Positions 30,040 through 32,877 of a stretch of 64,000 nucleotides of DNA are shown here, piece by piece. This DNA comes from Methanocaldococcus villosus KIN24-T80. Its GTDB lineage: Archaea; AGJL01; Methanococci; Methanococcales; Methanocaldococcaceae. The DNA is taken from the NCBI RefSeq assembly GCF_000371805.1, contig NZ_AQUK01000001.1, positions 558,001 through 622,000 of the forward strand. The letters run 5' to 3'. Position 1 is the stretch's first letter. The number at the start of each line of letters is the position of its first letter. Made by a program: the position numbers and the translations under genes. The notes below the pieces were generated by a model. It had not been told where the DNA came from and did not search any database. It saw only the letters and a list, made by a program, of their open reading frames with translations.

Positions 30040-30441
30040 TTATTTTGCTAGTCTTTTTAATATAAAAATAATAATATCTAATTCTTCATCAGAAATTTCA
30101 TCAGATTTCATAATTTTTAGAATTTTATGAATTTTTGAGTAATATTTTTTATAAACTTCAAAAATCTTAGTAGAATTTTCTGTCAATTTATAAATCTTTT
30201 TTTCCTTACCTATTTTTGTTTTTTCAATAATACTAATTTCTAAACAATTCAATTTTTTCAATTCATTTATTGCATTACATATAGTTTGTTCTTTAACATA
30301 ATGGTATTCATCACATTTTAACTTTTTAATATTTTGATTGAGTTTTTTTGTAATGTTATATATTGTTAACTCCTCCCCTTTCTTACCAAGAGCTAATATT
30401 TCTTCCATTATTTTCAATTTATCATGTACTTTTTTTGGCAT
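30040..30441 (-). CDS. Winged-helix-like small protein, possible regulator
   Basis: The 133-residue protein is lysine-rich and helical. It has a helix-turn-helix-like start (ALGKKGEELTIYNITKKL) and QTICNAINELKKLNCLEISI followed by a wing-like KTKIGKEKKIYKLTE. This is the PadR/ArsR-style pattern, but no named family is certain. The ATG at 30441 fits GGGTG upstream; the reading frame extends further to 30480 without a site. It borders the CRISPR region and its promoter faces the 12-codon ORF. Whether it regulates either is unknown. Confidence 0.65.
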   Translation of the reverse strand: MPKKVHDKLKIMEEILALGKKGEELTIYNITKKLNQNIKKLKCDEYHYVKEQTICNAINELKKLNCLEISIIEKTKIGKEKKIYKLTENSTKIFEVYKKYYSKIHKILKIMKSDEISDEELDIIIFILKRLAK

Positions 30442-30510
30442 TTCATCTACACCCTTTATAAAATATAAAATAAACTTCAAAAAAAGGATATGAGTTTTTT
30501 AGAATATCTC

Positions 30511-30518
30511 TTTATATA
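30511..30518 (+). promoter_or_regulatory. TATA box before the 12-codon ORF
   Basis: TTTATATA stands 54 bp before the ATG at 30565, which puts transcription start at about 30540 and leaves a short leader holding the Shine-Dalgarno AGGAGGTGA (30552-30560). Confidence 0.5.
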
Positions 30519-30564
30519 TTCATGAACCTAATTATTATATCATAACCCAATAGGAGGTGAAATC

Positions 30565-30603
30565 ATGGTAGGTCCAAGAAAACCAAAAAATCCAAAAAAT
30601 TAA
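30565..30603 (+). CDS. 12-codon ORF with full promoter and Shine-Dalgarno
   Basis: The predicted peptide is MVGPRKPKNPKN, basic and proline-rich. The ATG is 4 nt after AGGAGGTGA, one of the strongest ribosome-binding sites in the window, and a TATA box lies at the right distance upstream. It resembles no protein I know. It could be a true microprotein, a leader peptide, or the surviving start of a lost gene. The following 90 bp hold T-rich tracts (30655-30695) that would end transcription. Confidence 0.4.
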   Translation: MVGPRKPKNPKN

Positions 30604-30660
30604 TGGTAATTACATAAGGTCATGAAATTCTTTCAGGGTTATTCCTTATTAAATTTCCTT

Positions 30661-30939
30661 CTATTTCTTTTTAATAATATTTATCCCTTTTTTAAATTTA
30701 TGTTGTTTCCATAAACCATAAGGATTTTTTAAGCTAGATATACAACTTTGTTTCCATCCTTGTTATAATCGCCCCATTGATTGGTTTTGACATTAAAAAC
30801 ACCATCAATCTTTTTTCTTCTCGCCTGTTATTATACCACCAATCGCTCCAACTATTGCAGATAACACAAGTATCCAATCCTTCCAACCATCTGGATAATA
30901 CACCAAAACAAATATTGTGATTATTACCGCAGTTTCCAT
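30661..30939 (-). pseudogene. Decayed small membrane-protein gene at the CRISPR trailer end
   Basis: Three protein-like segments on the minus strand follow each other in different frames. The first (30939-30805) starts at an ATG inside CRISPR repeat 1 and reads METAVIITIFVLVYYPDGWK then a second hydrophobic segment and GEKKKD. The second continues KKIDGVFNVKTNQWGDYNKD and ends VVYLA at 30729. The third reads LKNPYGLWKQHKFKKG and ends at 30661. Both shifts fall at runs of six A (coding strand). Joined, they give about 92 residues with two membrane segments and a basic tail. The degenerate repeat at 30750-30769 falls within the second segment. No family is recognised. Confidence 0.6.
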
Positions 30940-31477
30940 CCTTGTTTTAATGGATGAGCGATTCAAACTAATACAGATTAAAGACGGATATTTTATAGTG
31001 AATGGGTTTCCATCCTTGTTTTAATGGATGAGCGATTCAAACGATAACTTAATTAGAAAAATGAAGGAATTATTTGGTTTCCATCCTTGTTTTAATGGAT
31101 AAGCGATTCAAACATGATTTAAAGGACTGGGGATTATTCGGAGAATTGTTTCCATCCTTGTTTTAATGGATAAGCGATTCAAACTTGTTAGACATATATA
31201 ATAAATTAATGAGCAAAATGTTTCCATCCTTGTTTTAATGGATAAGCGATTCAAACACCTTTCTTCCTAAATTGCTAAGGTTTAACTCATTGTGTTTCCA
31301 TCCTTGTTTTAATGGATAAGCGATTCAAACTGGAAAGTGTGGATACTATATAAATAGAGAAGGCTAGTTTCCATCCTTGTTTTAATGGATAAGCGATTCA
31401 AACTTGGGATTTAAATGTCAAATCAAAAATGTTTTTAGAAGTTTCCATCCTTGTTTTAATGGATAAGCGATTCAAAC
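30932..31477 (-). CRISPR. CRISPR array, 8 repeats of 37 bp and 7 spacers, no adjacent cas genes
   Basis: On the plus strand the repeat starts GTTTCCATCCTTG and ends GCGATTCAAAC. Repeats start at 30932, 31006, 31077, 31148, 31220, 31294, 31367 and 31441. Spacers are 37, 34, 34, 35, 37, 36 and 37 bp. I assign transcription to the minus strand: the repeat then ends in ATGGAAAC, like the 8-nt crRNA handle of type I/III archaeal systems. The two leftmost repeats share one substitution (GATGAGCG for GATAAGCG), and a 20-bp degenerate repeat lies further left at 30750-30769, marking the trailer end. The AT-rich leader is to the right. Cas proteins must be encoded elsewhere. Confidence 0.97.
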
Positions 31478-31512
31478 CCTATGCAACTACTAATTATATT
31501 CGCCAAAACTCC

Positions 31513-31521
31513 TATATAAAT
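31513..31521 (-). promoter_or_regulatory. TATA box of the CRISPR leader promoter
   Basis: On the minus strand ATTTATATA lies about 36-44 bp before the first repeat, so the pre-crRNA would start at roughly 31490, just ahead of the leader-proximal repeat. Confidence 0.5.
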
Positions 31522-31804
31522 CTTTCTTTTTCAACAAGATTTTTCTTACTACCTAATTATTAAAACCTTTATAAAATTAAGAAAGATTATGCAAATTATT
31601 TATAAATATAACGCACAACTGTATTATAAAATTCAAATAATTATAACTTATCTAATTAAAATAAAAACAAACTAAACATAAAACTATAAAAATAAAAATA
31701 AATATCTAAAATAATTAAAAAATCTCAATTTTAATTAGAAAAAATTATTATTACTTTTTCCCGATTTTCTCATACAATTTTTAACAAGAGGGTATATAAA
31801 GGCA

Positions 31805-31850
31805 AGAAAAGTTAATTAGAGAAGTTAATATAAGTTATTAGAAAAGTTAA
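31805..31850 (-). terminator. Pyrimidine-rich direct repeats after livM, probable terminator
   Basis: Three copies of TTAACTT[T/C]TCT on the minus strand (complements at 31805-31815, 31818-31828, 31840-31850) follow the livM stop directly. T-rich tracts of this kind end archaeal transcripts. It may separate the liv operon from the CRISPR leader. Confidence 0.4.
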
Positions 31851-31851
31851 T

Positions 31852-32877
31852 TTATTTAAATCTCTTCTTAATTGGAGGGGTTAAAATAGGTTTCTCAGGA
31901 ATTAAGCCAGAGGGTTTATAATAAAGTATTAGTAACATTAACATTCCAAATAGAATATAGGATATCCAAACAGGTTCAAATGGAATATTGAGTAAATATT
32001 TTATTTGATATTTATATACATCCAAAAATATTTTTATGACCACATAACAAAACACCCCTAAAGCTACACCTTTATTATTCCCTTTTCCACCTAATAAAAC
32101 CATAAGAAATGGAAAGAAAGTCCATTCTGCCCTAGTAAATGCTTGAGCCACTATATTAGCTGAATATAAAACATACAACACACCAGCTATAGCTCCTATA
32201 GCTGTACCTATAGCCATAGCTTTTATTCTTAAAAGCATTATATTTCTACCAAAAGCTTTAACAGTAACTTCATTTTCTCTCATAGCTCTTAAAATCCTAC
32301 CAAATGGAGTATTTAATAACCTTTCAACAAATAAAAATATTAAGAAAGCTATAAATAATGTTAGTAATGTAAAGGCTAACCCTCTATATTCTCCAGATAT
32401 AAAGGCTAATATGTCTGGTGTAGCTATTCCATAATAACCCCCAACTATATCAAGATTAAACATTGAAATTAAAAAAACTGTTTCAGATATAGCTAAAAGA
32501 GTTACTCCTAAATAATCTTCTTTTAACTTAGCACTTGGTAATATGAATACAGCCCCAGCCAATAATCCAATTATTACAGCTAAAACTATTGAAATAATAA
32601 GGATTAAAAAACCCACTATTGGGTCATGTGCTATAATATAATTTATTTTTGAAACTGCTATAGATGAACCATTTATAAGATCTCCATTTACATTAAAATA
32701 TAGCATTAATAACCTATCTAAAACTCCTCCAACAGCTATTGCTCCAATTAAAACAGAAAGAGCTTTTCCAAAATTTGGAATTCCAGCATAACCAAACTCA
32801 ATATTTAAAGAGAGTGAAACTATATAATAAATTCCAAACCAAAATAGTATTAGTGAAATTATTGAAATAACATCCAT
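31852..32877 (-). CDS. livM: Branched-chain-amino-acid-type ABC transporter permease (LivM type)
   Basis: The 341-residue membrane protein has about nine transmembrane segments. LivM-family marks are the EDYLGVTLLAISE loop, the conserved RILRAMRENEVTVKAFGRN coupling helix and the C-terminal PSGLIPEKP. It forms the channel with LivH at 32879. The Liv family also imports amides, urea and aromatic acids, so the substrate is not fixed. It is the last gene of the six-gene operon. Confidence 0.88.
   Translation of the reverse strand: MDVISIISLILFWFGIYYIVSLSLNIEFGYAGIPNFGKALSVLIGAIAVGGVLDRLLMLYFNVNGDLINGSSIAVSKINYIIAHDPIVGFLILIISIVLAVIIGLLAGAVFILPSAKLKEDYLGVTLLAISETVFLISMFNLDIVGGYYGIATPDILAFISGEYRGLAFTLLTLFIAFLIFLFVERLLNTPFGRILRAMRENEVTVKAFGRNIMLLRIKAMAIGTAIGAIAGVLYVLYSANIVAQAFTRAEWTFFPFLMVLLGGKGNNKGVALGVFCYVVIKIFLDVYKYQIKYLLNIPFEPVWISYILFGMLMLLILYYKPSGLIPEKPILTPPIKKRFK

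Follow-up and report, generated by a model that had tools for sequence, protein, structure and literature searches.

A 162-bp insert and a half repeat beyond the oldest end of a CRISPR array in Methanocaldococcus villosus

The window analyzed here, a stretch of 64,000 nucleotides from the genome of Methanocaldococcus villosus KIN24-T80, contains a CRISPR array on the minus strand (30932-31477) with 8 repeats of 37 nt, assigned to the Rfam family CRISPR-DR7, and 7 spacers of 34 to 37 nt, which gives a repeat-spacer unit of 71 to 74 bases. A leader of about 378 nt (31478-31855, minus strand) adjoins the stop of a long open ABC-permease-like gene, which ends at 31852. From the position of the leader it follows that the array is transcribed leftwards and that 30932 is its oldest end. 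The terminal full repeat, repeat 1 (30932-30968, minus strand), has a C variant at position 13 that is carried by both repeats at the oldest end. Beyond it follow an insert of 162 bp (30770-30931, minus strand), present as a single copy and with no relative found, then the 3' half of a repeat (30750-30769, minus strand), and finally an A+T-rich trailer flank (30605-30749). The G+C content of the insert was 37%, against 29.4% for the window and 23% for the trailer (30600-30749). Regular repeats, unique spacers, and an A+T-rich leader characterize the array at 30932-31477, but not the 162-bp unit.

To the left of the trailer lies a micro-gene of 12 residues, MVGPRKPKNPKN, with a strong ribosome-binding site (30565-30603, plus strand). 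Some 120 bp separate it from a divergently oriented gene for a wHTH regulator, PadR-like by a weak match (30040-30441, minus strand), with an operator-like inverted repeat at about 30475-30519. The pattern with the consensus MV(A/G)PRKPKNPK(N/K) was identified in 7 of the 36 genomes of the order, in 8 copies, and within the genus the 6 genomes that contained the micro-gene were exactly those that contained the wHTH gene. In an ungapped comparison, the mean identity was 93% within the micro-gene ORF, as compared with 41% upstream and 38% downstream, and third codon positions accounted by eye for 5 of the 6 variable ORF sites outside a lost stop. An inverted repeat of the type TTCAAAAA...TTTTTGTTGAATATT and a TATA-like stretch were located upstream of all copies with small changes, and the stop followed codon 12 in 7 of the 8. 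The exception was the second of 2 copies at locus L085 (genome G023), where loss of the stop extends the frame to 22 residues; the 2 copies are 280 bp apart and represent a tandem duplication that includes the operator-like repeat and an apparent remnant of the regulator start. The micro-gene was not found in viral contigs, and the string MVAPRKPKNPK did not occur in the literature searched by letters. The micro-gene is conserved and apparently unreported, and it may encode a regulated micro-peptide.

The 1.25-Mb genome contains at least 11 arrays built on the repeat GTTTGAATCGCTYATCCATTAAAACAAGGATGGAAAC. It consists of 2 contigs and therefore represents a different assembly from the 2013 M. 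villosus draft, an Ion Torrent assembly of 93 contigs, of which 81 were submitted, with 29.40% G+C (PMC3709152). The approximately 380 nt before the first repeat of the window array were 92% to 96% identical to those of 10 other arrays in the same genome. The trailers of the 11 arrays compared were unrelated to one another, with the exception of those of L014 and L016. Dispersed units of this kind are familiar from M. jannaschii, where a leader of about 400 nt is copied at many loci with few repeats at each ("long repeat/short repeat"). The M. villosus arrays resemble these in the dispersal of one leader that is followed at every locus by a small set of repeats, but a long non-spacer unit and a half repeat beyond the terminal full repeat were found in only one of the 11, the window array. 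In the other 10 arrays, degenerate terminal repeats were found in 6, with changes at the 3' end in L011, L013, L014, L016, and L017 and an inner substitution in L018. Cas1 (PF01867) was not detected in this genome, which is 96.83% complete, and was present in 12 of the 14 genomes of the genus. Given at least 11 arrays and no detectable Cas1, it may be that the arrays have become frozen or that Cas1 is encoded in the few percent missing from the assembly.

The half repeat, ATTATAACAAGGATGGAAAC, corresponds to 20 bp of the repeat with a single mismatch. The 5' arm of the hairpin is missing from it, and it does not fold alone. A whole-genome scan allowing up to 3 mismatches yielded 64 matches, 63 of which were inside arrays, the half repeat being the only match outside; by chance, 0 matches with no more than 1 mismatch would be expected in the window. 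Like the degenerate terminal repeats at the trailer ends of other arrays, it is imperfect and located beyond the oldest repeat, outside the regular unit. It differs from them in that the 3' half is retained with its exact end, the 5' 17 bases are lost, and 162 bases separate it from the array. The start-to-start distance from repeat 1 to the half repeat is 182 bases, which is no multiple of 71 to 74; an initial annotation of this DNA had pointed this out for a unit of 72 bp, correctly in substance. It had also described a 20-bp degenerate repeat at this site inside codons for DYNKDGN. The position and the occurrence of DYNKDGN in one frame agree with our data, but the coding status of that frame does not, and the best reading is that DYNKDGN is the half repeat translated in a chance frame.

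Because the spacers of the 11 arrays ranged from 33 to 46 nt, the 162 nt do not represent an ordinary spacer, and the right-hand repeat of the unit has only 20 of 37 nt. No remnant of a repeat (score equalled by 169 of 300 shuffles) or of a leader (120 of 300) was detectable in the insert. The half repeat could be the rest of an older terminal repeat in a formerly longer array, with the 162 bases put together from old spacer or flank DNA through deletions or rearrangements. Such a history would fit with the degenerate terminal repeats in 6 of the 10 other arrays, with the trailer end being the oldest part of an array, and with the arrangement in the related genome G011, where a spacer-like stretch and then another degenerate repeat come after a half repeat. 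However, the other arrays have mostly lost the 3' end of the repeat, whereas the 5' half is lost here, the 162 bases are without trace of a repeat, and the coding-like frame described below, of about 41 codons, exceeds every spacer of the 11 arrays in length. We consider this explanation unlikely.

The initial annotation had interpreted the DNA to the left of repeat 1 as one coherent, decayed membrane protein of about 92 residues. It was correct that 3 segments occur in 3 minus-strand frames, with runs of 6 A at the joins, and that an ATG at 30937-30939 is located inside repeat 1. A codon model trained on the 53 long ORFs of the window gave 0.54 to 0.58 bits per codon for segment 1 (about 41 codons), which may be compared with a median of 0.576 for genes and a 99th percentile of 0.40 for wrong frames. 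This coding-like segment, AVIITIFVLVYYPDGWKDWILVLSAIVGAIGGIITGEKKKD (30808-30931, minus strand), contains 2 hydrophobic stretches followed by a stop at 30805-30807. The score was only 0.106 bits per codon for the part of segment 2 before the half repeat, KKIDGVFNVKTNQWG, and 0.299 for segment 3, which is contained in the trailer flank. The 13 codons DYNKDGNKVVYLA scored 0.64, with 7 of the 13 being the half repeat itself.

For the insert as a whole (30770-30931), the score of 23.6 bits was equalled by 2 of 1,000 dinucleotide shuffles, by 6 of 293 antisense pieces, and by 67 of 228 pieces outside long genes, the last being an unclean null set in which real short genes remain. The score for 30661-30749 was at the level of shuffled sequences (equalled by 579 of 1,000), and segment 3 within the trailer flank did not score as coding. 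The coding test on the insert is of modest strength, and essentially all of the coding signal comes from segment 1. Furthermore, when frameshifts were permitted the score of the insert increased from 23.6 to 24.1 bits, that is, by 0.5 bit, so that the single 92-residue protein could not be upheld. Whether the frameshifts stem from sequencing error is a moot question if segments 2 and 3 are non-coding.

As proposed in the initial annotation, homologues were searched for in related genomes, their absence having been named there as evidence against a decayed gene, and none was found. The DNA search of the 14 genus genomes identified no relative, and no homologue was identified with segment 1 in the 14 genus and 36 order genomes (a "class"-level search took in the same 36 genomes as the order) or with segments 1 and 2 together in the 36 order genomes. 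There was no true homologue in contigs from one genome per species, no homologue in viral contigs, and no match to the 162 bp as DNA in phages and plasmids. As a protein, segment 1 had no phage match and 2 weak plasmid matches (E 3). No segment matched Pfam; segment 3 alone was covered by the DNA search of the 14 genus genomes, Pfam, PHROGs, and the loci in hand, and genome-wide only by DNA. Neither a source for the insert nor an empty-site allele was found in the comparison of one genome per species.

A few candidates were rejected. PHROG matches to a holin family and 2 uncharacterized families were too weak (E 0.086 to 0.79), and weak matches in G014, G015, G016, G027, and G035 (E 0.017 to 0.3 per genome, 36 searched) were in the range expected by chance. 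A match of 56% over 18 residues in a Bacteroidales contig (L037), selected by one search pattern, overlapped a long ATPase-like ORF but in a different frame. An apparent second copy at 292925-292996 of the same genome (72 bases, 74%) reflected an A+T-rich likeness to the flank at 30650-30717 and was taken as low complexity.

These results bear on the suggestion that a local membrane-protein gene was hit by the array, lost its start, and later decayed by frameshifts. The coding-like hydrophobic segment directly adjoins repeat 1, and landing in a gene is conceivable since near-identical leaders are dispersed genome-wide next to mostly unrelated trailers. But no intact homologue spanning the breaks was found in the 36 order genomes or in wider collections, and segments 2 and 3 contributed no coding signal or gained little by joining. 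Moreover, the front of the gene is absent from the other side of the element, where the ABC-permease-like gene ends next to the leader. The suggestion also leaves a half repeat within the reading frame unexplained. That the array itself grew into a gene, as the initial annotation had it, runs against its polarity: new CRISPR repeats are added at the leader end and the leader is at the opposite end, which makes growth into DNA at 30931 unlikely. What stands is a coding-like hydrophobic fragment with the array on one side and a genuine half repeat on the other; its origin as a decayed local gene is clearly unlikely.

It is very improbable that the 44-residue ORF METAV...KKKD represents a real, possibly new, 2-helix membrane protein that starts at the ATG in the repeat. 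The frame is open from this ATG to the TGA at 30805-30807 with gene-like codon use, and hydropathy peaks of about 2.4 over 13 residues were observed in each half. On the other hand, the ATG is not preceded by a ribosome-binding site at a usable distance, no homologue was found, and the first hydrophobic stretch is short. It was also noted that the ATG sits exactly at the start of ATGGAAAC, which we take to be the 8-nt handle of Cas6-type cleavage, as in related type I and III systems. Given this position and the inability of the half repeat to fold into a hairpin, putative Cas6-type processing would release a leaderless 5'-AUG message for the 44-residue membrane protein. If true, this would amount to a CRISPR array making an mRNA, but we regard a terminal repeat that doubles as a start site as extremely improbable.

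As the best explanation we propose, with a probability of roughly 0.45, that a dispersed leader-array CRISPR element ends here in an aberrant outermost unit, in which a 162-bp foreign fragment was inserted at the terminal repeat and the last 20 bp of the repeat were duplicated. The fragment would probably be the 3' end of a membrane-protein gene from a virus, a plasmid, or an unsampled host, its coding stretch being carried along as a passenger. On entering the terminal repeat it would have caused the last 20 bp to be copied, which would yield the order full repeat, insert, 20-bp half repeat, and native trailer. We infer a single insertion event. The longest direct match between the 2 ends of the insert is 20 nt with 1 mismatch, as for a target-site duplication. 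Also in favor of an insertion are the uniqueness of the half repeat outside arrays, the higher G+C content of the insert, the restriction of the coding signal to it, its lack of repeat or leader remnants, its length beyond that of any spacer, and the palindromic elements of relatives described below. The 5' half would be missing because only the last 20 bp were duplicated, and an insertion of this kind would also account for the exact 3' end of the half repeat, the spacing that is no multiple of the unit, and the end of the coding signal at the half repeat.

The left junction is the exact repeat end, which is the normal position at which Cas1-Cas2 joins spacers, and the right junction is at repeat position 17/18. 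The agent may have been an aberrant Cas1-Cas2 event or DNA capture during the repair of a break. Since Cas1 was not detected in the genome, any action of Cas1-Cas2 must have been in the past or from elsewhere, and the insertion is probably old. Normal spacer integration does not yield a duplication of 20 bp rather than 37 bp. It also counts against the insertion that there is one case among 11 arrays and no replication within the genome. Ectopic integration within arrays, with normal spacers, is known from Streptococcus thermophilus Uy02 (PMC5338259). The 2 cases are alike in that new DNA is attached to a repeat distant from the leader, but here the insert is 162 bp rather than of spacer length, 20 bp instead of the whole repeat is duplicated, and Cas1 is undetected. 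A literature search yielded general CRISPR papers and no account of such a structure, which is no proof of absence.

Half repeats without the 5' part were also identified in 3 other genomes of the genus (G005, G006, and G011). Here, palindromic elements of the type TAAAAATAAATGGGGTATACCAATAGG...CCTATGGGTTT and variants thereof are flanked by a degenerate terminal repeat on one side and, on the other, by a half repeat that begins at position 18. Among 38 distinct palindromes, from 30 loci of a palindrome search and 11 others, a set partly chosen for holding half repeats, 10 continue directly into a half repeat, and L070 shows a further such case. These elements share with the M. villosus locus the placement of DNA after a terminal repeat and before a 3'-half repeat that starts at position 18, but they are hairpins with 12 to 14 bp of repeat common at the left junction, as compared with 20 here. 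Loci L072 and L074 have a spacer in common, so that the copies may descend from one event that spread with the array, and the common break is suggestive only. The shared break at 17/18 may also be a coincidence.

Palindromes that run into a 3'-half repeat were seen at L070, L072 to L076, L080, L101, and L111, mostly beside a degenerate terminal repeat and with the right junction always at 17/18; sometimes, as in L073, 2 palindromic elements occur in succession. The palindrome GGTATACCAATAGG...CCTATGG is distributed genus-wide (11 of 14 genomes), and its inner arms vary and mostly stay complementary. In the search of the 14 genus genomes it was absent from the genome of the window, G003, and G009.

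The M. villosus locus is best regarded as a curiosity and hardly as a new system. If the insertion of a foreign fragment at the terminal repeat holds, the old ends of archaeal arrays would be a landing site for non-spacer DNA, possibly with one preferred break in the repeat, and open frames at the ends of arrays would be no evidence for decayed neighboring genes. The palindromes that end at the same base in related species suggest that such landing could be counted across genomes.
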